The notes under the pieces: generated by a model | What the model was told of the DNA's origin: nothing | Database searches by the model: none | What the model saw: only the letters and a program-made list of their open reading frames with translations | Translations under genes and position numbers: made by a program | Shown here: piece after piece, positions 10,015 through 44,683 of the stretch | Numbering within the stretch: the first letter of the stretch is position 1 | Layout: every line of letters starts with the position of its first letter | NCBI GenBank assembly: GCA_009781635.1 | Contig: WQXU01000021.1 | Span: 1-45,828, forward strand | Direction: 5' to 3' | DNA: 45,828 nt | From: Treponema sp. | GTDB taxonomy: Bacteria; Spirochaetota; Spirochaetia; Treponematales; Breznakiellaceae

Positions 10015-12174
10015 ATGAAAGAAATAACAAGTCTGTTCGGCAGCATGGTCTTCAATGACACAGTAATGCAGGCGCGTTTGCCCGAAGATATTTATAAGGC
10101 CTTAAAAAAAACAATTTTGCAGGGTACGCATCTGGAACAGGGTATTGCAGATGCTGTTGCAAACGCAATGAAAGAATGGGCTGTTGAAAAAGGCGCGACT
10201 CATTATACGCACTGGTTCCAGCCTATGACGGGAACAACTGCGGAAAAACATGACAGTTTTATTACTCCTGCTCAGGACGGCAAAATTATAATTGAATTTT
10301 CCGGCAAAGAGCTTGTCCGCGGAGAATCGGATGCATCCAGTTTTCCGTCCGGCGGGCTGCGCGCTACTTTTGAAGCGAGAGGGTACACTGTTTGGGATAT
10401 AACTTCCTATGCATTTATCAAGGACGGCACGCTTTGCATTCCCACTGCTTTCTGCTCTTACTCAGGGGATGCGCTTGATAAAAAGACGCCGCTGCTTCGA
10501 TCCATGGAAGCAATCGACAAGCAGGCTCTTCGCATACTCAGGCTTTTCGGAAACACATCGGCATCCAGGCCGGAGGCAAAACGTGTAATTACAACTGTCG
10601 GGGCTGAACAGGAATATTTTCTTATAGACAAGGATATGTTCCTGCGGCGTCCGGATTTAATTTTTACAGGGAGAACTCTGTTCGGAGCGCGTCCGCCAAA
10701 GGGGCAGGAACTTGACGATCACTATTTTGGCTGTATAAAACCAAGAGTTTCCGCTTTTATGAAAGAGCTGGATGAAGAGCTCTGGAAGCTGGGTGTTTAT
10801 GCCAAAACCAAACATAACGAAACAGCTCCCGCGCAGCATGAACTTGCGCCTGTTTTTACTACAACCAATATCGCAACCGACCATAACCAGCTGACGATGG
10901 AATTAATGAAAAGCATTGCGAATAAACATGGTATGGCATGCCTTCTTCATGAAAAACCCTTTGCCGGCGTTAACGGAAGCGGCAAGCATATTAACTGGTC
11001 GATCACTACGGACACGGGCGTCAACCTGCTTGAACCCGGAGACACGCCGCATGATAACGCCCAATTTCTGCTGTTCTTTGCGGCTGTAATTAAAGCTGTG
11101 GACGAGTATCAGGATTTAATGCGTTTGTCTGCGGCAAGCGCGGCAAACGATCACAGGCTTGGCGCGAATGAAGCGCCGCCTGCAGTTGTGTCAATGTTTA
11201 TTGGCGATGAATTAATGAGTATTCTGGAAGCCCTTGAATCAGGTGCGGCTTACAAGGGAAAAGAAAAAGTGCAGATGGAAATTGGCGTAACGGCGCTGCC
11301 GCATTTTCCGAAGGACTTAACCGATCGCAACCGCACATCTCCCTTTGCTTTTACCGGAAACAAATTCGAGTTTCGCATGCCGGGCTCGGCGCTTTCAGTC
11401 GCAGGTCCCAGCATTGTGTTAAATACAATTGTCGCCGAAGTTCTTGGCCAGTTTGCAGATATTCTTGAATCCGTGCAGAATATAAGTTCAAAACCAAATG
11501 ACTTTACGGCAAAATTGGCGGAGCTTATAAAAAAGACATTTAATGAACACAAAAGAATAATCTTTAACGGGAACAATTATTCAAATGAATGGATTGAGGA
11601 AGCGCAAAAGCGCGGATTATCAAACCTGAAGACAACAGTTGATGCGCTGCCTGAGTTTATTTCAAAAAAGAGCGTAGAGTTATTTACAAAGCACCATGTG
11701 TTTACAGAAACGGAGATCCGTTCGCGTTACGGGATATTAATGGAAGCTTATTGCAAGACGCTGCATATCGAGGCTCTTACAATAATAGACTTGGTCAAAA
11801 GATATGTAGCTCCGGCCTGCGTGGATTATCAAAGGGAACTAGTGGATCTTTTCAGGCAGAAGAAAGCATACGGCGGTTTTGATGTTTCGCTTGAAGAGCA
11901 TTTTCTTGTCCGTATTACAAAACTTTCAGCTAACCTGCTGAAAAAATTAACTGTTCTTGAAAACGCGGTACAGGAATCCCCTAACAGAAAGTTATCTGAA
12001 ACCCGCAGCGGGGAGGATTTGAATCAGATTCTTGAGCAGGCGGGCTTCTGCCGTGACAGGATTAGCGCTGCAATGTCGGAATTACGGCTTATAATTGACG
12101 AGCTTGAAACACTTGTGGCAAAAAAGCACTGGCCAATTCCCACCTATGCGGAAATATTATATAGTGTAATTTAA
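10015..12174 (+). CDS. glnN: Glutamine synthetase type III
   Basis: The 719-residue length and motifs are those of GSIII rather than the ~450-residue GSI. The ATP/glutamate-site segments are present: THWFQPMTG near 61-69, [12 protein letters not shown] near 197, [18 protein letters not shown] near 265-282, [17 protein letters not shown] near 314-330, and the family-specific [16 protein letters not shown] near 436-451. The C-terminal part is mostly helical, as in the family. It condenses ammonium and glutamate with ATP in the cytoplasm. GGGAGA precedes the ATG. It is the first of two unrelated-class glutamine synthetases in the window; the other is GSI at 16660-18090. Confidence 0.95.
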
Positions 12175-13131: not shown

Positions 13132-14736
13132 TTAAGACGGCGCTGCGCTTGCCACCTTTGCGGGGTACCATTTTGCAAACCATGCTGTAAATATGCCGAG
13201 TAATGCAATTGGTATATTGGCTATGATACCCCAAAAAGGAACAATACTGCTTCCGGCAATAAACAGCGCCGCAGTTCCTGTTAATATGTTAGTAATACCC
13301 CACATAACTGTTAAGATTCTGTTTGTTTTTATAAAAAGAGGATTTTTGAATGCGTCCTCTCCGCCGTAACTATTGCAGGAGTAATAGGCGGAAAGCGGGA
13401 TGCGGAAAAATGCCGAAGCAAGCCATAATATGCCAAAAGTAAATGAAGCAAGTGATATGCGCCATTCACCGGCGCCGGAAATTAATATGTAAAGGCAAAT
13501 TATTGTTATTATAAAGGCGCCGGTTCTTTCATATGGAGTTGGTTTCAGCCAAAAGTGCAGAAGACATGAAAATGCAGCAGCGCCGATTGCAAGCATAGCT
13601 CCAATATGACTGCTGACAGGCAGAAAAATCCAGAGCGCCAAAAACGGCAGTAAAAGAACAAGCATGTTGGATTTTTTATTGATGCCGGAACCTGTCAGTT
13701 TGTCCTGCCTCTTTTTCCCGAAAAGTTCATCCATTTTTAACATTGTATTAAAATCGCCCAGTGTTCTGTATTGACGATCCATCATGGCCTGCGGGCCGCT
13801 TTTTCTTCCTTCTGAAATATCCAGCCAGACATCAAAGGCAGTTTCTATTTTTGTTGTGTAGGGCGTAAAATTATCAGTTTTTAAAACACATTTTTCTTTT
13901 CCAAGCAATAATTGATAAGTTTTATCAAGATCTGAAAAATGTATTTCCAGGCAGATATCTTTTGTATATGCGTCCGGATTGTAAACAGCCGCCATCTGGC
14001 GCATGAACCTGTACGATTTGTCCGCCTCCTGACTGCCGGATTCATCTGTTTTTGCGATATTCCAGCTTGCATTTGCCAGCTCTGTAAATATTTCCGGCGG
14101 ATATAAAAGCTCATCCAGTTTGCTCTGCGTTTCCGCAGAAAAACTTCCCTTCAGTAAAAACTCATTCCCCGCTTTTTTTACATAAGAAAGATATTCATCT
14201 GTTCTTGCGGATAACTGCGGAATGCGGAAAAGTTCTCCTTCCGGGCAGATAATCTTTGTTAATCTGCTGCCGAAAATAATTTCAAATTGACGCAGCAGCG
14301 CATCATAATTATTTTCTGTTCGGCAGAAACCGCAGGTAGATATTAATACATGACGCTGATGCGAAAGATCGTACCGCGGGGGATGACTGCCCCTGTCATT
14401 AATTTCAGGTAAACTAAGCGGCAGCAGCCTGTCAAGAAACCCCTTGATTTTTGACGGCATGCCGTAATAATAAAGCGGAAAACTCCAGATTATTAAATCA
14501 GCATTCATATACTGCTGTAAATAATCCTGCATATCATCTTTTATGCAGCAAATGCCTGGTGTTTTCGTCCAGCATGTATAACATCCAAGACATGGTTCTA
14601 TTCCCGAATCGCCAATCGTTATTGTCTGCACGGGGTTATTCTTGTTTGGATTTAAGCCGTCCAGAAAGGCATTAGTCAGCTTTAAGGTATTGCTTTTTTC
14701 TTTTTTTGGACTGCCGTTTAACACAAGTATTTTCAT
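13132..14736 (-). CDS. NADPH-dependent FMN reductase/flavodoxin-like domain fused to a membrane domain
   Basis: This 534-residue protein combines two parts. Residues 1-200 match the NADPH-dependent FMN reductase or iron-sulfur-flavoprotein group: LVLNGSPKKEKSNT at the FMN phosphate site, a GCYTCW..TPGICCIKDD cysteine segment near 52-70, and WSFPLYYYGMPSKIKGFLDR near 89-108. Residues 200-350 form a soluble linker. Residues about 350-534 hold five or six hydrophobic segments (for example LLLPFLALWIFLPV and AFIITIICLYILI). A flavin reductase joined to an integral-membrane domain suggests electron transfer at the inner membrane; this is inference. It is the last gene of the minus-strand run, preceded by 12-bp direct repeats and a TATAAT box. 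The ribosome site is weak (CGGCGGAGT). Confidence 0.7.
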   Translation of the reverse strand: MKILVLNGSPKKEKSNTLKLTNAFLDGLNPNKNNPVQTITIGDSGIEPCLGCYTCWTKTPGICCIKDDMQDYLQQYMNADLIIWSFPLYYYGMPSKIKGFLDRLLPLSLPEINDRGSHPPRYDLSHQRHVLISTCGFCRTENNYDALLRQFEIIFGSRLTKIICPEGELFRIPQLSARTDEYLSYVKKAGNEFLLKGSFSAETQSKLDELLYPPEIFTELANASWNIAKTDESGSQEADKSYRFMRQMAAVYNPDAYTKDICLEIHFSDLDKTYQLLLGKEKCVLKTDNFTPYTTKIETAFDVWLDISEGRKSGPQAMMDRQYRTLGDFNTMLKMDELFGKKRQDKLTGSGINKKSNMLVLLLPFLALWIFLPVSSHIGAMLAIGAAAFSCLLHFWLKPTPYERTGAFIITIICLYILISGAGEWRISLASFTFGILWLASAFFRIPLSAYYSCNSYGGEDAFKNPLFIKTNRILTVMWGITNILTGTAALFIAGSSIVPFWGIIANIPIALLGIFTAWFAKWYPAKVASAAPS

Positions 14737-14763
14737 ATTTACTCCGCCGGTTTATATTTTTTG

Positions 14764-14834
14764 ATTATAGGAAGTTATATATGTTCAGGGAATAAAATAA
14801 TTACCAAGATGCAAAATTGCTGTACCAAGATGCA
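14764..14834 (-). promoter_or_regulatory. Promoter with two 12-bp direct repeats before the flavodoxin/membrane gene
   Basis: Read on the minus strand, TGCATCTTGGTA occurs twice (14823-14834 and 14802-14813), identical and exactly 21 bp apart. A TATAAT box follows at 14764-14769 with no good -35 (TTCCCT at 17 bp). Direct repeats about two helical turns apart upstream of a promoter lacking a -35 are the known arrangement for LytTR-domain activators such as AgrA and ComE. A LytTR gene lies 0.4 kb upstream in the same run. Confidence 0.6.
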
Positions 14835-14836
14835 GA

Positions 14837-15235
14837 TTAGTCTTGTTTTTCTTTTCGTTTTTGCAGAAGTTCGTTTATTTCTTTTGTTTCTTTATTTATT
14901 TTTGTAATACTAAGTATTATTGCAAGCATGTAAATCGCAATTGCCATAACGACAAGAACCCATACGGGTATTGAGGAATACCAGTCAAATATTAATCCGA
15001 ATGTGACAAGGACAGCGATTATATAGCATATATCTATCAGGTACTCCAGAATTAAATATTGAATTTCAAGTTTCTTAAGCAAATGGAGACCGGCAATAAT
15101 AACTGTGTTTGCGCCGAATATCTGAAAAATAGTTTCTGTAAAGATTGTTTCAATTTTAAAGAATGCAAAGAAACCGGCAAGAATAACCAATGCAGCGCCG
15201 TTTATAAACATTATGTAAATAACTATTTTTTTCAT
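14837..15235 (-). CDS. DUF3021-like four-helix membrane protein
   Basis: This 132-residue protein has four predicted membrane segments (about 5-25, 36-52, 66-84, 92-112) and a charged Lys/Glu-rich C-terminal tail ending KRKEKQD. Size, topology and position directly after a LytTR gene match the DUF3021 proteins that pair with LytTR regulators in Firmicutes and restrain them at the membrane. The sequence match itself is judged by eye and is weak. The inferred role is a membrane partner or inhibitor of the LytTR protein encoded at 15279-15719. The gap to the LytTR gene is 43 bp and a GGA-rich site precedes the ATG. Confidence 0.55.
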   Translation of the reverse strand: MKKIVIYIMFINGAALVILAGFFAFFKIETIFTETIFQIFGANTVIIAGLHLLKKLEIQYLILEYLIDICYIIAVLVTFGLIFDWYSSIPVWVLVVMAIAIYMLAIILSITKINKETKEINELLQKRKEKQD

Positions 15236-15278
15236 TTTTCCATCCTGTATTTCAAAATAACCTCAACTCAGGGCAATC

Positions 15279-15719
15279 CTATGTTTCAAGAAGTATTTGT
15301 TTTATATTGGCAAGATATTTTCTTGTAACATAAAGGCATTTTCCGTTTGAAAGAACCGCTTCCAGGTGACTGTTTACAAGCGGTTTTATTCTTTCAAGCT
15401 TATTTATATTGACAATGCAATATTTGCTAATCTGTACAAACCCGTTATTTTTAATTTTCTCGTGTATCTGATATAAACGGTTTTTGTTTTGATAATTTTC
15501 ATTCTCGCAGCAGACAATTGTTTTTTTATCCACGCTTTCTATGTAAAAAATATCACTGATATTAACAAGTTTTAATTCATCGTCTGAATAACATTCAATT
15601 TGCATTTCAGCGGATTTTACCAGTGAGACAATGCGTTCAACAATTTTATTCTTTACAGGATACGTAATTAATACTTCGATATCTTTTTGCGCTGTATTTT
15701 GTTCAAGTTTAATTATCAT
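15279..15719 (-). CDS. LytTR-family DNA-binding regulator without receiver domain
   Basis: This 146-residue protein carries a LytTR domain in residues about 45-146, with LVNISDIFYIESVDKKTIVC, RLYQIHEKIKNNGFVQISKY, NINKLERIKP and YVTRKYLANIKQIL. There is no N-terminal response-regulator receiver, so control must come from elsewhere, plausibly the small membrane protein encoded next. Such receiver-less LytTR/membrane-protein pairs form LytTR regulatory systems in streptococci (BrsRM, HdrRM). The gene begins 16 bp after the outer-membrane-like gene, whose last codons contain a GAGGAA that can serve as ribosome site. Likely targets are its own neighbourhood: 12-bp repeats lie before the flavodoxin/membrane gene. 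Confidence 0.85.
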   Translation of the reverse strand: MIIKLEQNTAQKDIEVLITYPVKNKIVERIVSLVKSAEMQIECYSDDELKLVNISDIFYIESVDKKTIVCCENENYQNKNRLYQIHEKIKNNGFVQISKYCIVNINKLERIKPLVNSHLEAVLSNGKCLYVTRKYLANIKQILLET

Positions 15720-16659: not shown

Positions 16660-18090
16660 TTACAGATCAAAGTATGTTTCAAATTCAACCGGATGAGGAA
16701 GCTGCTTGTAGCGCACAGCTTCCTTTTTTTTATTTTCGATCCAGATATCGATTAGCTTCTCTGGAAATACGCCGCCCTGGGTTAAAAAACTGCGATCCTT
16801 TGCAAGCGCATCAAGGGCTTCATCAAGGCTTTGAGGCAGAAATTTTATTTTTGCCTGATCTTTTTTTGACAAATTGTAGAGGTTGAAATCATAGGGGCCG
16901 TAGCCTTCTTTTTTTGGATCGATTTTATTTTTAATGCCGTCAATGCCTGCCATTAATATCGCAGAATACGCATAATAGGGATTGCATGTTCCGTCCGGGC
17001 TTCTAAGTTCGAAGCGCTTGCTGTCAGGCTCTTTTGCATAGGCCGGTATGCGGATAACGGAACTCCGGTTTGATGTAGCGTAACCGATTGTAACCGGCGC
17101 TTCGTAACCGGGAACAAGTCTTTTGTAGGAGTTTGTGCTGGGATTTGTAAATCCGCACAGCGCGCGGATATGTTTTAAAATTCCGCCGATAAAATAAAGG
17201 GCAGTTTCGCTAAGCTGCGAATAACCTTTTGCATCGTAGAACAGGGGTTTATTGTTTTTAAACAGATGCATGTGTACATGCAGGCCGTTTCCGGCTTCTC
17301 CGTAAATTGGCTTTGGCATGAAGGTAACTGTTTTATTTTCCGCGTATGCTGCGTTTTTTAAAATATATTTTGTCAGCATTGTTTTGTCGGCCATTTCAAG
17401 AAGGCCGCCGAATTCAACTTCAATTTCTACCTGGCCGGGACCGGCCACTTCATGATGATGGTACTTTACAAGTATACCCATATCTTCCATTATCATGGAC
17501 ACTCTGCTTCTGAAATCTCCGAGCCTGTCCAGGGGCGGAGCGGCATGATAGCCGCCCTTTACAGGTATCTTGTAACCAAGGTTTGCAGACTTTGAACTTG
17601 TATTCCACTCAGCCTGATCCGCATCAATTTTAAAGCTGGATGAATGGCTGCGGATGGAATAGCTGACATGATCAAATACATAAAATTCAAACTCCGGCCC
17701 TATTCTCATTTCATCGGCAATTCCGGTAGAGAGAAGATATTTTTCTGCGTTAATTGCAACATTGCGGGGATCCTGATCAAAGCGCCTGTTTTCCGGAAGG
17801 TCGATCACATAGACATCGCCAATCATGTAAAGTGTTGGGACTTCCGCAAAAGGATCAATTTGAGCGCTGTTTAAATCCGGAATGAAAACCATGTCGCTTT
17901 TTTCTACAGGCGCAAATCCGTAATTTGAACCGTCAAAGCCGACTCCGTTTTTTAATGTCTCTTCGGTTAACCTGCCGATGGGCATTGTAAGATGCCGCCA
18001 GCGTCCGGTTAAATCTGTCATCATAAAGTCTGCCATCTTTATTTTGTTTTCTTCGCAGCGTTTCTTAATTTCATCAAAAGTTACCGGCAT
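16660..18090 (-). CDS. glnA: Glutamine synthetase type I
   Basis: This 476-residue protein is a standard-length GSI. Motifs in order: FMMTDLTGRWRHLTMP and VGFDGSNYGF (beta-Grasp domain, about 22-60), RIGPEFEFYVFD near 129, GGYHAAPPLDRLGDFR near 178, KPIYGEAGNGLHVHMHLF near 260-277 (glutamate and metal ligands), NPSTNSYKRLVPGYEAPV near 316-333, RIPAY near 347, and NLYNLS near 401 carrying a Tyr where GlnE would adenylylate GSI-beta enzymes. It makes glutamine from ammonium and glutamate. The start has GGAGG 8 nt upstream. A promoter lies at 18108-18137. No glnB or glnE gene is in the window. Confidence 0.95.
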   Translation of the reverse strand: MPVTFDEIKKRCEENKIKMADFMMTDLTGRWRHLTMPIGRLTEETLKNGVGFDGSNYGFAPVEKSDMVFIPDLNSAQIDPFAEVPTLYMIGDVYVIDLPENRRFDQDPRNVAINAEKYLLSTGIADEMRIGPEFEFYVFDHVSYSIRSHSSSFKIDADQAEWNTSSKSANLGYKIPVKGGYHAAPPLDRLGDFRSRVSMIMEDMGILVKYHHHEVAGPGQVEIEVEFGGLLEMADKTMLTKYILKNAAYAENKTVTFMPKPIYGEAGNGLHVHMHLFKNNKPLFYDAKGYSQLSETALYFIGGILKHIRALCGFTNPSTNSYKRLVPGYEAPVTIGYATSNRSSVIRIPAYAKEPDSKRFELRSPDGTCNPYYAYSAILMAGIDGIKNKIDPKKEGYGPYDFNLYNLSKKDQAKIKFLPQSLDEALDALAKDRSFLTQGGVFPEKLIDIWIENKKKEAVRYKQLPHPVEFETYFDL

Positions 18091-19444: not shown

Positions 19445-19507
19445 GTACCAAGGCATTTTAATTTAAAAGCTTTATGAATAAAATAATTTGTTTTATAAGG
19501 AGATATT

Positions 19508-19537
19508 TTGATTATTCAAAATACATGGTTATTATGA
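19508..19537 (+). promoter_or_regulatory. Possible coupled leader mini-ORF
   Basis: AAGGAG (19497-19502), the only good ribosome site here, is 5 nt before a TTG that opens a 9-codon frame (LIIQNTWLL) ending in TGA at 19535-19537. That stop overlaps the ATG at 19534 (ATGA), the start that gives the best lipoprotein signal. This looks like translational coupling. Confidence 0.4.
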
Positions 19538-22500
19538 AAATATTTAACAAAAAAAGTTTTAACTGCATTGCAGTTTTTTTGATTGTACTGTTCTGCATTT
19601 TTTCTTCTGCATGTCAAAATCCCATAATGGAAAAATGGTGGCCGGAGTCCGAGTCCGAAGCCGAAAGCGAAACAGAGGAGCCTGCAGAACCCGGAGGAAA
19701 GGGAGATAATTTCGGCGTTGTGCGTTTTGATCTTGGTTTTGAGCCGAATATTTTGTTAGGTGAAGGGCCGCAGCCAAGAGACCTGACAATAGCCTGGGAC
19801 AGCATAATCGGAAGGCTGCGCCCGGTAAACAGAAACGGATTTGGTTTTCTTGGATGGTTTGACGAGAATAATATCGAGTGGAATGTTGAGACGCGGCCTG
19901 TAACGGAAGCAGACGACACAGACAGTGACGGATATATAACTCTTACTGCCGTGTGGAGCGTTGATAAATATATTGTCAGTTTTGTAACTGAGCCATCTGA
20001 TGCTGAAATATTTCCTCAGTTAGTGGCTGCAGGCGGAAGAGTTATTCAGCCTGTGAATCCGCCGCAGCTTCCGGACAGCCGAGGTTTTGCCGGCTGGTTT
20101 GCAGATCCGGAATATACCGCCGCATGGAACTTTAATACTCCGGTTAATGATAACATAACTCTTTACGCCAACTGGGTTCTTGATATACGCAATGTAAAAT
20201 TTGAAACTGACGGCGGAAGACGCCCCGACGGCTCATTATTAACCCGCACAGAAATTGTTGTGCCTTATAACGGCTTTGTTCAGGATCCCGGCCCGGTTAT
20301 AAAAACAGGTTATTCATTCGACGGCTGGTACACGGAAGATACATATCAATATAAATGGAACTTCTCAAATTATCCTGTTCAAAACGATATGATTCTTTAT
20401 GCAAAGTTTGTGCAAAACATTTACATTGTCAGTTTTATAATAGCTCCTTCGGCATTAGTTGCACCTCACCCTCAGACAATAGCTCATGGAGATCCGGTTA
20501 ACCGGCCTGACGATCCGGCTAAGCTCGATGATGGCCGCGTTTTTGCCGGCTGGTATACAGTCAACGGAGAAACACATGAAGAAGGATGGCATCTAAAGTA
20601 TCTATGGAATTTTGATACGCCGGTGACAAGTAACAGGATACTTTACGCAAAGTTTGTGCAAAACGTATATAATGTCAGTTTTATAATAGTTCCTTCGGCA
20701 TTAGCTGCGCCTCCTTCTCAGACAATAGCTCACGGCAATACAATTGTCAGACCTAACGATCCGGCTAAGCTCGATGATGGCCGCATTTTTGCCGGCTGGT
20801 ATACAGTCGACGGAGAAACACATGAAGAAGGATGGCATCTAAAGTATCTGTGGAATTTTAATACGCCGGTGACAGATAACAGGATACTTTATGCCAGATG
20901 GCTGTCTCAGACAGAGCCTGTTGAACCTGTTATTCCTGTTGAGCCTCCCGTAGAACCCGGAGGAAAGGGAGAAAACTTCGGCGTTGTGCGTTTTAATCTG
21001 GATTTTGAGCCTAATATTTTACTGGGAGAAGGGCCGCAGCCAAGGGATTTGAATATAGCCTGGGGCAGCACAATTGGAAGACTGCGTCCGGTAAACAGAA
21101 ATGGCTATGGTTTTCTTGGATGGTTCTGCGAGAAAAATACAGAATGGGATGTTGAGACGCGGCCAGTAACGGAAGAAGACGATGTAGATGATGATGGTTT
21201 TATTACGCTTACTGCCGTATGGAGAGTAAGCAGATATGTTATAAATTTTGTAACGATTCCCTCTGACACTGTTATATCTCCCCAGGTAGTGGCAGCCGGC
21301 GGGAAAATTATTCAGCCTGTCAATCCGCCGCAGCTGGAAGACACAAGCGGTTTTGCCGGCTGGTATACGGATCCGGATTATACTGAAGAATGGGACTTCA
21401 GCGCTCCGGTTAACAGCAACAGAACGCTTTATGCAGGCTGGGCTCTTCATACCCATAATGTAAGATTTGAAACTAACGGCGGAAGACGCCCCGACGGCTC
21501 GGAAATGTCGCGTACGGAATTTGCCGTGCCTCATGACGGCCTTGTTCAGGATCCGGGCCCTGTTGTCAGAACAGGTTATTCATTCGACGGCTGGTACACG
21601 GAAGATACATATCAATATAAATGGAACTTCTCAAATATTAATTACCGCGTTAACGAAGATATGGTTCTTTATGCAAAGTGGGTTATAAACATCTATATTG
21701 TTAATTTTGTGATAACTCCTTCTGCCGCATCCGCTCCTGCAAATCAGTCAATAATACACGGCAATTTTATTTCCCAGCCTGGCAATCCGCAGTCAGGAGA
21801 CGGCCGGGTCTTTGCCGGCTGGTATACAGTTAACGGAAGCATGCACGCAGAAGGGTGGCATTTAAAATATCTATGGGACTTTAACACTCCGGTCACAGAG
21901 AACATGACGCTTTTTGCAAGGTATGCGCCTGTGACCCGCACTGTTGTTTTTAAAGTAAACGGCGGCAATGATATGCCGCGTACTAATTTTACAATTCCCA
22001 TAGGCAACTCAATCTTATATCCTGGCGCGCCGTCAAGGCCGGGGTATAGTTTCAGAGGCTGGTTTTTTGATCCGGCTTGTACTCCCGGCAGTGAAATTAA
22101 TTTTTCAGCATACAGAATAGAAGAGCCCGATGAAATTATTGGAATTGATCCGCTGTATCTTTACGCCGGATGGAGCATGAATCCGTACAGAATTACTTTC
22201 AATTCAGATGACGCTGATGATGTTGCTGAACCTCAATATGTTTATCACGGTGAAATGATTCATATGCCGGTTATCACCGCTCCTCCAAGACCTGGTTACT
22301 ATCTGAATGGCTGGTACACGGACACAACTTATGCCGATGAAAGACGCTGGGACTTTAACGGTATAGTGACATCTAACAGAACTCTGTATGCCAGATGGGA
22401 GAGTTCAGATTATGTTGTCAATTTCTTTTTAGGGAATCCAAGCGGAGGATCGCCTCACCAGGTTTATATTGATGCCTTGCTGGAAATACAGCATCATAAT

Positions 22501-23616
22501 TTCCAGGATAAGGTAATTGAACCTTTTATGCCGCCTCTTCCGGCAGGAGATACATCAAACTGGTCATTCCTGCGCTGGGACTATCATCCTGATCGCAACG
22601 CTAATCCTGTAAATGTAAATAATCCGGCTTTCCGCTCCGTTCTTGAGCCCTGGGATTTTGATACCGGATTAGACGATAACAATACAAGCGATCCGACAGG
22701 CGAAGGCGCCAAGATTCTTAACCTCTACGCCAGATGGGTTCCGCCTGAACCTGATATGGTTTGGGTTCCAAGAGGAAGTTTTATCATGGGCGATTCAGGC
22801 GTAGCAGGCAGCCCTGTGGCTTATCATTCCTACCCGGTACGCAGAGTAACCCTGGATGGTTTTTATATCAGCAGATATCCTGTGACTCAAATAAATTCGC
22901 CGGATACAAACAGAGGGTATCATTATTTAATGAATGTTAACCCCAGTCAATTTAACAGAAATACTTTCCGCCCCGTGGAGAGGGTGTCCTGGTATGATGC
23001 AATTGAATACTGCATTGAACTTACAAGGGTAAATGCCGGGCTTGATCAGGTTTATACAATGACAGGCATAAGCAGGCCTTCTGCAGCTCTGCCCGGAACT
23101 CCTCCGTATACGATTTATCCGATAAACGATGCTGCTGTGACTTGGAACAGCGGCAATCCTAACGGTTACCGCCTTCCGACAGAGGCAGAATGGGAATATG
23201 CGGCAAGGGGAGGAAACGGCACACCCGGAAATTACATATATTCAGGCAGCAATAATGCAAGCGATGTAGCGTGGTACAATGAAACAGTCAGAGCGGAGCC
23301 GTCAGGTTATCAGGCTACTCAAACGGTAGGATCGAAAGCTCCGAATGCCCTGGGCATATACGACATGAGCGGGAATGTGTCCGAATGGGTCTGGGACAGA
23401 TTTATTTCATATAAAGATTATATAGCTTCAAATCCTGCTGATCTTCACGATAACCCGAGAGGCCCTTCCAGCGGAGCTGAACGCGTAAGGCGCGGCGGAG
23501 GCTGGAGCAATGCTGCAGGTAACGTGCGAAGCGTAGTCCGGAACAGTGACAATCCCGGTTCAGCTAACTGGGTAATTGGATTCCGTATTGTCCGCGGCCC
23601 AATGGAAATTTACTAG
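19534..23616 (+). CDS. Multi-module Listeria-Bacteroides-repeat lipoprotein with C-terminal formylglycine-generating-enzyme (SUMF) domain
   Basis: From the ATG at 19534 the protein has 1360 residues. An in-frame upstream ATG at 19474 gives 1380, but lacks a ribosome site and adds a hydrophilic leader. With the later start the N-terminus is an ideal lipoprotein signal (MKIFNKK, hydrophobic core, SSAC at residue 27). About 12 modules of 70-90 residues follow, each ending 'GW(Y/F)....W(N/D)F..PV..(N)..LYA(R/K)W', the Listeria-Bacteroides/InlB B-repeat pattern. The last ~285 residues, from MVWVPRGSFIMGD, are a SUMF/FGE-sulfatase domain with RLPTEAEWEYAARGG, YDMSGNVSEWVWD and RRGGGWSN. Bacterial SUMF domains of this kind are often non-catalytic binding domains. 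It is probably exposed on the cell surface. A terminator follows. Confidence 0.85.
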   Translation: MKIFNKKSFNCIAVFLIVLFCIFSSACQNPIMEKWWPESESEAESETEEPAEPGGKGDNFGVVRFDLGFEPNILLGEGPQPRDLTIAWDSIIGRLRPVNRNGFGFLGWFDENNIEWNVETRPVTEADDTDSDGYITLTAVWSVDKYIVSFVTEPSDAEIFPQLVAAGGRVIQPVNPPQLPDSRGFAGWFADPEYTAAWNFNTPVNDNITLYANWVLDIRNVKFETDGGRRPDGSLLTRTEIVVPYNGFVQDPGPVIKTGYSFDGWYTEDTYQYKWNFSNYPVQNDMILYAKFVQNIYIVSFIIAPSALVAPHPQTIAHGDPVNRPDDPAKLDDGRVFAGWYTVNGETHEEGWHLKYLWNFDTPVTSNRILYAKFVQNVYNVSFIIVPSALAAPPSQTIAHGNTIVRPNDPAKLDDGRIFAGWYTVDGETHEEGWHLKYLWNFNTPVTDNRILYARWLSQTEPVEPVIPVEPPVEPGGKGENFGVVRFNLDFEPNILLGEGPQPRDLNIAWGSTIGRLRPVNRNGYGFLGWFCEKNTEWDVETRPVTEEDDVDDDGFITLTAVWRVSRYVINFVTIPSDTVISPQVVAAGGKIIQPVNPPQLEDTSGFAGWYTDPDYTEEWDFSAPVNSNRTLYAGWALHTHNVRFETNGGRRPDGSEMSRTEFAVPHDGLVQDPGPVVRTGYSFDGWYTEDTYQYKWNFSNINYRVNEDMVLYAKWVINIYIVNFVITPSAASAPANQSIIHGNFISQPGNPQSGDGRVFAGWYTVNGSMHAEGWHLKYLWDFNTPVTENMTLFARYAPVTRTVVFKVNGGNDMPRTNFTIPIGNSILYPGAPSRPGYSFRGWFFDPACTPGSEINFSAYRIEEPDEIIGIDPLYLYAGWSMNPYRITFNSDDADDVAEPQYVYHGEMIHMPVITAPPRPGYYLNGWYTDTTYADERRWDFNGIVTSNRTLYARWESSDYVVNFFLGNPSGGSPHQVYIDALLEIQHHNFQDKVIEPFMPPLPAGDTSNWSFLRWDYHPDRNANPVNVNNPAFRSVLEPWDFDTGLDDNNTSDPTGEGAKILNLYARWVPPEPDMVWVPRGSFIMGDSGVAGSPVAYHSYPVRRVTLDGFYISRYPVTQINSPDTNRGYHYLMNVNPSQFNRNTFRPVERVSWYDAIEYCIELTRVNAGLDQVYTMTGISRPSAALPGTPPYTIYPINDAAVTWNSGNPNGYRLPTEAEWEYAARGGNGTPGNYIYSGSNNASDVAWYNETVRAEPSGYQATQTVGSKAPNALGIYDMSGNVSEWVWDRFISYKDYIASNPADLHDNPRGPSSGAERVRRGGGWSNAAGNVRSVVRNSDNPGSANWVIGFRIVRGPMEIY
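19684..20646 (+). repeat. Internal duplication, copy 1 (modules 1-4)
   Basis: This stretch recurs 1266 bp (422 codons) downstream, for example the AACCCGGAGGAAAGGGAGA start and the GGCGGAAGACGCCCCGACGG segment. Nucleotide similarity is high, which suggests fairly recent duplication. Confidence 0.8.
20401..20892 (+). repeat. Tandem duplication of an 82-codon module (modules 4 and 5)
   Basis: Two 246-bp units (20401-20646, 20647-20892) are nearly identical, sharing long runs such as GGATGGCATCTAAAGTATCT. The second large copy has only one such unit. Confidence 0.8.
20950..21915 (+). repeat. Internal duplication, copy 2 (modules 6-9)
   Basis: Counterpart of 19684-20646 at an offset of 1266 bp. 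Modules 6, 7, 8 and 9 correspond to 1, 2, 3 and 4. Confidence 0.8.
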
Positions 23617-42121: not shown

Positions 42122-44683
42122 ATGTTAACTCTTGTAAATGATAAGTGCATTCCTGCCGATTTGCCGGAAATTCATATCTCCAGAACAGAATTAATGAAAA
42201 AACTCAAAATAGCGGCTCTGGGTCTTTATATATATATCGGGGCTCCGGCAGGTTCCGGAAAAACGGTAACCGCGCTTCTTTGGAATTCTATCTGCGGGCG
42301 GAAACCGCTTTGGATTAGCCTTGATGCCTATGATAATGCGCCTTCTGTGTTCTACAGGCAATTATCTGCGGTTCTGTGTTCTACGCAGCCCAAAAATAAA
42401 AACATGCTTTCTATTCTGGAAGATACCGCTTTTTCATCATCGCCTGTTGAAAATACAATCAGGATAATTGCGGAAATGCAGTTAGATGATAAAAATTTAT
42501 ACACATTAACCCTGGACGATCTTCATCTGATAAGCAATATGGATATACTTAATTCTCTTCCTGCGGTGCTAAAGAGGCTTCCCCGGTCTTTTATTGTATT
42601 ATTTTTATCGCGTAACGCGCCGCCTGAATCTTTTTTTAATACAAAGACAGGAATATTAAAACAGGAAAATAGCGTTATAAACATGGAACACCTGCGCTTT
42701 TCGGAAAAAGAATTAAAATCCTATTTTTTAAAACTTGGCCGTGTTATTACAGAGGAAGAGACAGCTCTTGTTCTGATGGTAACAGAGGGGCTTGCTATCG
42801 GCATTAACGCTATCGCAAAAAGCAAAAAAATAGAAAGCGGCAATACCGAATATGAATTTGCAAATTATATACGCGAACATCTGTGGGAAAGCTGGGACAG
42901 TGATTTACGCGATTTTATGTTAAAGACTTCGATTGTTAGTGAAATAAACGAAAAACTTGCAGTTACTTTAACAGGACTAAAAAATGCAGAGAAAACATTA
43001 CAGAACCTCTGCGCCGCAAATATTTTTATAAGTCATGTTGGAAAAGATATGTACCGTTATCATCATCTGTTTCTTGCATTCCTGCGTGATATGGCAAAAG
43101 AGAGTAAGATTAATCTTGCCGGTTTAAATAAAGCGGCGGCAAAATATTACCTTGATGCGAGACAGTACCTTCTTGCCAGGCATTATGCTGTGCAAAGCGG
43201 AAATGATAATATGATTTTCAAGGTTATACATCAGTTTAATCAATATACAAACCCTGCGTTTGACGAGTATGAGGCATTTTCCAGATTGTTCAACCGGAGC
43301 ATCCTGGATAAAGGAATCTGCGACAGTCATCCTTATCTTTATACATCTATGATGGAAGCGGCATGGATTTCCGGTGACAGAGAAGCAGTAGAACTTTACT
43401 GGGACAAGCTCAGGCACTACCTTCCCGTAATTGCCGTGAAATATCCAAAAATTCTGGAAACGGTAATTTTAGAACTTGCCGCAGATTATCGTAAACCTTT
43501 TCCCCAGCTTGTGGATGAATTCAACAATATGCCGCCCATCCCCCGCCTTGACAAACATTATCAGGTTTCTACCTTTTCTCTTCAATTGCCTTTTATCCAC
43601 CGCAGCCTGAGGGATTTCTCTGATTTATCCGAATATGCAGACAAGGGCATGATGGAAAAACTTGATAAAAGTTTTGGGCTGTTGTTAAAAGATATGTATA
43701 AAACGATAATGTCAAGTTTTTTTTCCGCTATCCTTCTGGAAAGAAACAAGATTGAGGAAGCCTTAAAGCTTGCCATTCAGGCTAATGAAGAAGCGGCAAA
43801 AGTAAAAAACCCGGAAGCGATTTTTACAGCTTACAACCATCTTTCTGCCGTATATTTTGCAATGGGAAACGAAGTTTTACTGAGAGAAACGCTGGCAAAA
43901 ACAGAAAATTATATAGCGCAGTCAGGCGCAAGATTTTTGGATCGTAATTTTCTTGCATGGAAAACAAAAATAAAACTGATGGATGCGGATAAACATGCGG
44001 CCGAGGAATGGCTGGATAATTATTTTGTCAATGATGATGATGACAGCAAGCAAAGTTCAACTGTTCCCCTGTATAAAATCTTTCAGTGTTTTACTACTGT
44101 CCGCGCTTTAATTATTTTAAACAGGGGCTCAAGGGCAATGGCTCTTATTAACAGGATTATTCAATTTGCCCGCGACTATCGCCGTCCCATGGATTTAGCC
44201 GAAGCGCTTACATTAAAGGCCTGCATGGAGTGGGCGTCCGGCCGCCGCGCCGAAGCTGCCGGCATTCTGGAAGAAGCGCTGCTCCCGATGCAGGAAAAAC
44301 GTTTTATCCGCATAATTGCCGATGAAGGCGCGGCAGTTGTTCCAATACTTAAACGCATCGCTTCTTCATTGGGTGAAAGTCCGGCTGCTCTTGACAGAAC
44401 TTATATAACAGAAGTAATTTTAGCGGCCAGCGAAGTTGCAAACCGGTGCTGCGGCATTTTGGCTTTTTTCAAAAAAAGCGGCAAGCCTGTAAAGCTTTCC
44501 AAACAGCAGACAAAAATGCTTGAACTTTTGGCAAAAGGATATAAAAATGCGGAAATCGCCAAAATGACAAATGTTTCCGTCGCAACTGTAAAGTGGCACT
44601 TAATGCATGCCTACGAGAAACTGGATGTTAATAATTCAATAGACGCTCTTTTAAAAGCAAAGTCGCTTGGCTTGCTGAAATGA
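42122..44683 (+). CDS. LuxR-family transcriptional regulator, MalT/LAL type
   Basis: This 853-residue protein has the layout of large ATP-binding LuxR regulators. A STAND-type P-loop is at 40-48 (GAPAGSGKT), a Walker B-like LYTLTLDDLHLI lies near 131-142, and winged-helix and arm regions follow. TPR-like helices occupy about 390-770, and a C-terminal LuxR HTH about 790-853 (LSKQQTKMLELLAKGYKNAE, IAKMTNVSVATVKWHLMHAY). In this family ligand and ATP drive oligomerisation and activation of specific promoters. The ligand is unknown; the neighbouring kinase is a possible functional partner, but the protein has no receiver domain. A palindrome upstream suggests autoregulation. Confidence 0.9.
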   Translation: MLTLVNDKCIPADLPEIHISRTELMKKLKIAALGLYIYIGAPAGSGKTVTALLWNSICGRKPLWISLDAYDNAPSVFYRQLSAVLCSTQPKNKNMLSILEDTAFSSSPVENTIRIIAEMQLDDKNLYTLTLDDLHLISNMDILNSLPAVLKRLPRSFIVLFLSRNAPPESFFNTKTGILKQENSVINMEHLRFSEKELKSYFLKLGRVITEEETALVLMVTEGLAIGINAIAKSKKIESGNTEYEFANYIREHLWESWDSDLRDFMLKTSIVSEINEKLAVTLTGLKNAEKTLQNLCAANIFISHVGKDMYRYHHLFLAFLRDMAKESKINLAGLNKAAAKYYLDARQYLLARHYAVQSGNDNMIFKVIHQFNQYTNPAFDEYEAFSRLFNRSILDKGICDSHPYLYTSMMEAAWISGDREAVELYWDKLRHYLPVIAVKYPKILETVILELAADYRKPFPQLVDEFNNMPPIPRLDKHYQVSTFSLQLPFIHRSLRDFSDLSEYADKGMMEKLDKSFGLLLKDMYKTIMSSFFSAILLERNKIEEALKLAIQANEEAAKVKNPEAIFTAYNHLSAVYFAMGNEVLLRETLAKTENYIAQSGARFLDRNFLAWKTKIKLMDADKHAAEEWLDNYFVNDDDDSKQSSTVPLYKIFQCFTTVRALIILNRGSRAMALINRIIQFARDYRRPMDLAEALTLKACMEWASGRRAEAAGILEEALLPMQEKRFIRIIADEGAAVVPILKRIASSLGESPAALDRTYITEVILAASEVANRCCGILAFFKKSGKPVKLSKQQTKMLELLAKGYKNAEIAKMTNVSVATVKWHLMHAYEKLDVNNSIDALLKAKSLGLLK

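Follow-up and report, generated by a model that had tools for sequence, protein, structure and literature searches.

A LytTR regulatory system variant in Treponema with the predicted operator behind the regulator pair, facing a flavodoxin-SCP2-membrane gene

LytTR regulatory systems and the locus in Treponema sp.

Response regulators of the AgrA/ComE type carry a LytTR DNA-binding domain, and their operators are direct repeats spaced about two turns of the DNA helix apart. The combination of a LytTR regulator, a DUF3021 protein and 9-bp repeats with a 12-bp spacer has been described as the LytTR Regulatory System, LRS (Zou 2018, PMC6193735). In these switches, known from streptococci, the membrane protein presumably restrains the LytTR regulator. 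In HdrRM and BrsRM of S. mutans and in other LRS, a receiver-less LytTR regulator is followed by a small membrane protein, which belongs to DUF3021 in several cases (PMC6193735). In the S. mutans systems, a 12-bp spacer separates the 9-bp direct repeats, and the -10 region is about 33 bp away; in the general LRS geometry, the repeats are followed by about 10 bp, the -35 region and 17 bp to the -10 region (PMC6193735). Autoregulatory repeats upstream of the operon are treated as a hallmark of LRS, and positive autoregulation is found in nearly all of them (Zou 2018, PMC6193735). The published survey includes an example from Treponema, T. bryantii, with the repeats ACCACTTAT/GCCACTTAT and 11 bp between them, which shows that LRS occur in spirochaetes (PMC6193735).

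The stretch of DNA analysed here, called the window, comprises 45,828 nucleotides of a Treponema sp. contig (WQXU01000021.1). Between the positions 13132 and 15719, it encodes on the minus strand a LytTR regulator, a DUF3021-like protein and a flavodoxin fusion protein, in this order. A preliminary description of the locus had named these three consecutive genes, and all of its parts were found where they had been placed. The lytTR gene (15719-15279, minus strand) codes for 146 amino acids with a Pfam LytTR domain at the residues 48-143 (E 1.8e-21). No other Pfam domain was above the cut-off, hence the regulator is receiver-less, as had been claimed. The absence of a receiver domain, and of a histidine kinase gene at the locus, distinguishes it from the AgrA/ComE-type regulators. 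The genome has four LytTR genes, all of them receiver-less and each followed by a gene for a small membrane protein.

After a gap of 43 bp, lytTR is followed by the DUF3021-like gene (15235-14837, minus strand), which encodes a small membrane protein of 132 amino acids, the presumed inhibitor of LytTR, recognised by its orthologue matches and hydrophobic segments. When compared with Pfam DUF3021, the protein scored 20.3 bits (E 6.6e-4), under the curated cut-off of 24.7, and is therefore named DUF3021-like. The domain was matched by 15 of the 18 aligned orthologues at E <= 0.01 (best 6.9e-7), and the kinship proposed in the preliminary description holds through them. The same description had assigned four helices; a simple hydropathy scan gave three clear hydrophobic segments and a fourth is plausible, which leaves the count unsettled. 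The locus has a LytTR-family regulator without a receiver and a small transmembrane protein directly downstream, as LRS do. The layout with LytTR, DUF3021 and the same repeat geometry is published (PMC6193735); therefore the earlier statement that no described system pairs these parts fails for the first two genes.

Upstream of lytTR, a gene for a predicted exported protein (16638-15736, minus strand) ends 17 bp before the regulator gene. The locus is flanked by two glutamine-synthetase-like genes at 10015-12174 and 16660-18090 (719 and 476 amino acids), and a 1380-residue protein, in which InlB-like stretches recur and whose C-terminal part resembles a formylglycine-generating-enzyme domain, is encoded at 19474-23616; these names were given by sequence reading only. 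Besides the repeats described below, the window has another exact short direct repeat of 12-13 bp with a 29-bp period at 42343.

The predicted operator and its position in relatives

Behind the DUF3021-like gene, the sequence TGCATCTTGGTA is present twice on the minus strand, at 14834-14823 and 14813-14802. Both copies are exact and have a period of 21 bp, as originally reported. Written as 9-mers, the core of this predicted LytTR operator (14834-14802) consists of GCATCTTGG twice with a 12-bp spacer. A -10 box, TATAAT, follows 34 bp past the operator at 14769-14764 on the same strand. At the -35 position before the flavodoxin gene we found a degenerate TTCCCT, and since it matches at 3 of 6 positions the description of a promoter with a TATAAT box and no -35 was fair. 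The 9-bp repeats, the 12-bp spacer and the 34 bp to the -10 box are equivalent to the LRS spacing (PMC6193735), which agrees with the claimed geometry of LytTR activators. The direct repeats of LRS, 9 bp long with a spacer of 11-13 bp at a fixed promoter distance, are present here, at the next gene's promoter. Repression of the flavodoxin promoter by LytTR, instead of activation, is very unlikely, since the conserved site is upstream of the -35 region with the spacing of an activator, a good -35 is absent and the geometry is that of LytTR-activated promoters (PMC6193735).

An exact 12-bp pair at a period of 20-22 occurs as a single case in the window. In sixty dinucleotide shuffles, period 21 gave no pair and the period range 20-22 gave 0.08 per shuffle, and the full window motif, with up to 3 mismatches allowed, was found once in the genome.

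In contrast to the S. mutans LRS, the operator in the window follows the regulator pair and is directed at the next gene, and none was found before the pair. Repeats with a period of 21 bp were absent from the 430 bp upstream of lytTR and from the regions before the preceding genes. Since there is no such site before lytTR, the autoregulatory promoter that counts as a hallmark of LRS appears to be absent, although an operator of another motif may be present there. A whole-genome motif scan was included in the search and no operator upstream of the pair's own operon was found; the locus is therefore an LRS-like variant rather than a standard LRS. In the own-genome scan the sites of all four LytTR loci were within the best seven and the total was near the control level; beyond these four loci, the matches in this genome were at control level only.

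The LRS regulators of the genus were analysed with a maximum-likelihood tree. They split into a clade A and a clade B, each with a support of 99/97; the LytTR tree has long branches, and its deeper order is unsure. The regulator of the window belongs to clade B, which has 18 orthologues, and the four LytTR loci of its genome comprise two of clade A and two of clade B. In clade A, the repeats directly precede lytTR, and most loci have a -10 box 34 bp downstream of them or close to this distance; this is the classic layout for autoregulation. In nearly all clade-B loci, the repeats are found at the DUF3021 gene's 3' end, before the next gene. In twelve clade-B loci (L080, L081, L082, L084, L085, L086, L091, L093, L244, L216, L217 and L218) half-site 1 starts 9 nt before the end of the DUF3021 gene, and GCA TCT TAG or a close variant closes the reading frame. 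Half-site 1 starts 3 nt after the end of the gene in the window and in L089, 21 nt after it in L094 and 262 nt after it in L090. Two loci are exceptions. In L083, the site is before the operon, where likely outputs come first and the LytTR-DUF3021 pair last, and in L087 the site faces a divergent gene. Among the described LRS, that of Listeria monocytogenes lmo0984-lmo0985 shares the motif GCATCTTAG, and its repeats, GCATCTTAG-12-GCATGTTAC, are nearly the clade-B motif (PMC6193735). The repeats of the Listeria and T. bryantii LRS are upstream of the LRS operon, unlike those of the window (PMC6193735).

Conservation of the repeats in relatives had been set beforehand as a test, and the repeats were found at the same place with respect to the LytTR and DUF3021 genes, also in three other genera of the same family (L216-L218). 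In many relatives, half-site 1 reaches into the end of the DUF3021 gene, and part of this conservation could therefore be coding. However, half-site 2 is non-coding and is also conserved. Throughout the relatives, the half-sites are conserved, the spacer sequence is variable and the spacing is constant.

Forty genomes of the genus were scanned for two TGCATCTTRG half-sites separated by 11 free bases, with up to 2 mismatches allowed. The scan returned 12 sites and the reversed control none. Ten of the sites are at clade-B LRS loci; the remaining two are found before a TraX-type gene (L245) and inside a transporter gene (L238). At the genome level, the presence of a site was associated with the presence of a clade-B regulator (Fisher p 1e-5). 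A TATAAT-like box stands exactly 33 or 34 bp past the repeats in 10 of 18 sites, whereas shuffles gave a mean of 0.8 boxed sites and a maximum of 5 in 5000. L217 also has a TATAAT at 33 bp, as read by eye. The L245 site (L245:1504-1534; G005:C204:10972) is a clade-B operator before a gene for a TraX-type membrane protein, and a LytTR gene was absent within the fetched 3 kb; it is possible that this gene is a distant target of the same regulator.

Taken together, the conserved site and its spacing support a real activator site, as predicted from the sequences. Two other readings of the repeats have to be weighed against this. Repeat pairs can occur by chance, and the repeats might also be an RNA feature such as a riboswitch or an attenuator. 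This is hardly credible, as exact pairs at period 21 were absent in the shuffles, no Rfam family was found in the window, and the conserved half-sites with a variable spacer sequence and a constant spacing contradict it. It might also be that the locus is a classic LRS with positive autoregulation, in which the pair would regulate the operon it belongs to, the downstream gene being transcribed by simple read-through. Upstream autoregulatory repeats are what Zou 2018 (PMC6193735) would lead us to expect, and in clade A, the sister clade from this genus, the sites precede lytTR. We consider this quite improbable, because no 21-bp repeats are present upstream of lytTR or the preceding genes of the window, the pattern scans gave none there, and the site with a properly spaced -10 box stands after the pair. 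We conclude that the LytTR-DUF3021 pair and its operator are a real, conserved regulatory unit and a variant of the described LRS. The variant, an LRS operator behind the regulator pair that faces the next gene, seems to be new.

The flavodoxin-SCP2-membrane protein and the genes behind other operators

The gene behind the predicted operator (14736-13132, minus strand) encodes a predicted flavodoxin-type NAD(P)H:FMN/quinone reductase of 534 amino acids with a C-terminal multi-helix membrane domain. Its flavodoxin part matches Flavodoxin_2 (4.2e-16) and FMN_red (1.9e-15) in Pfam. Between the flavodoxin and the membrane parts is an SCP2 domain. Its profile was matched at E <= 0.1 by each of the 9 family members, with 8.1e-9 as the lowest value; taken singly, the protein of the window reached 0.0025, under the curated cut-off, and the domain is assigned through the family. 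The fusion of a flavodoxin-type reductase to a membrane domain had been recognised correctly in the preliminary description, which overlooked the SCP2 domain. A structure model of the protein had a mean pLDDT of 85.5 and a pTM of 0.73. The structure comparison covered the residues 1-198, which resemble the AzoR/NQO structures of FMN-dependent azo/quinone reductases (best Z 15.8, rmsd 3.3-3.8 over 179-187 residues), and the alkylsulfatases that Foldseek also returned for the model; the latter matches probably reflect the SCP2-like part, which alkylsulfatases carry. The protein is likely to work as an NAD(P)H:quinone-type reductase that is bound to the membrane and has a lipid-binding module.

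Proteins with the same three parts are found mostly in Clostridia and in spirochaetes and have a full-length identity of at most 58-59% to that of the window. Among the 90 homologues with a readable context, a PadR gene adjoins at least 56, and start and stop usually overlap; the count is a lower bound, as some contigs are short and some loci partial. A LytTR gene was present in the fetched neighbourhood of none of the 90; the neighbour in the window is the LytTR-DUF3021 pair. A LytTR neighbour was also sought from the flavoenzyme side in a phylum search and in the genome collection, and none was found. The exact trio, for which a search had been proposed, was therefore found in the window only, and the usual partner of the fusion is PadR. 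In G263 (L215, G263:C23), a LytTR and membrane protein pair lies about 2.3 kb past a flavodoxin-SCP2-membrane gene; this candidate for a second trio was rejected, as unrelated genes are between them and no such operator was found. We found no published name for the PadR-linked proteins, and our literature searches on a flavodoxin-SCP2-PadR system and on Treponema LytTR, which covered subscription papers in part, gave no description of the arrangement. In the tree of the fusion, the window protein groups with a short version from the relative G022 (99/90), and the sister of this group is [Clostridium] symbiosum (100/99), a placement that suggests a transfer between phyla.

The genes behind the other clade-B operators vary. 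DUF2141 is found next, often with an Fe-S membrane protein, or the Fe-S membrane protein follows directly; other next genes are TraX (L217), DUF2807 and a beta-barrel-like protein with a peptidase-like gene, and envelope proteins are among them. In L080:365-3293, LytTR, DUF3021 and the operator precede a pair of flavodoxin-type genes and a TraX gene, which is a second, separate link of an LRS to flavodoxin-type proteins and the nearest parallel to the trio of the window. The names beta-barrel-like, peptidase-like and NlpC/P60-like, as well as the first L080 flavodoxin, are readings of sequences with no Pfam match. Since the trio was found in the window only and other genes follow elsewhere, the conserved unit is the regulator pair with its operator, and the flavoenzyme is one output among several. 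It is therefore the local promoter by itself that points to the flavoenzyme as the regulated output.

In G022, a homologue of the gene upstream of lytTR in the window (56% identity) is directly beside the short flavodoxin gene and the LRS pair is absent; a YjbQ-like flanking gene is common to both loci. The cassette was therefore inserted in the window genome or lost in G022. In L232 (G044:C46), a shortened LytTR frame of 112 amino acids is followed directly by a beta-barrel-like gene and the DUF3021 gene is absent, which is possibly a decayed cassette. A broader proposal, to which we give somewhat less than an even chance, is that in one spirochaete family the LRS is a portable open-loop switch. 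The lytTR gene, the DUF3021 gene and the operator fused into the stop codon of the inhibitor would travel as a cassette before different membrane or redox genes and switch each of them privately; in the window, the cassette would have come to a gene with mostly PadR-linked relatives.

A predicted open-loop switch

Our preferred reading, with a probability of about 0.78, is that the window encodes an LRS with an output-directed layout. The DUF3021 membrane protein would hold the LytTR protein inactive until a signal relieves this restraint. The freed LytTR would then bind to the two half-sites at 14834-14802 and activate the promoter whose -10 box is at 14769-14764, from which the gene for the flavodoxin-SCP2-membrane reductase would be transcribed. 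Since the operator is after the regulator pair and none is before it, positive feedback is not expected and the circuit would be an open-loop switch, unlike the streptococcal LRS with their positive autoregulation. Its output, a flavodoxin-SCP2-membrane fusion, is a further difference to the S. mutans systems. The self-contained LytTR circuit of the preliminary description, whose membrane protein would check the regulator and whose output would be the flavin enzyme, fits these results and its repeats are conserved; its novelty is reduced to the extent that LytTR with DUF3021 was already described, and the trio was found in the window only.

The BrsRM LRS of S. mutans is activated by transposon insertions that hit two genes for NADPH-dependent FMN reductases. 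By analogy, a flavin or redox signal may be worth considering for the LRS of the window. The same observation is in line with another reading, in which the membrane flavoenzyme is part of the sensor: the DUF3021 protein would read the redox or lipid state of the enzyme and the operon would be a feedback loop. Both proteins are predicted to be located in the membrane, and some other clade-B outputs are Fe-S membrane or flavodoxin-type proteins. However, other clade-B loci have unrelated next genes (TraX, DUF2807, beta-barrel-like, DUF2141), from which it follows that the circuit needs no flavoenzyme, and we regard a sensor role as unlikely.

The output-directed layout makes clades A and B a natural comparison, in which one type of regulator is seen with feedback and without it, in one genus and even in one genome. 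The strict clade-B motif predicts targets of LRS. Some LRS are linked to membrane redox proteins, which bears on what these systems sense.
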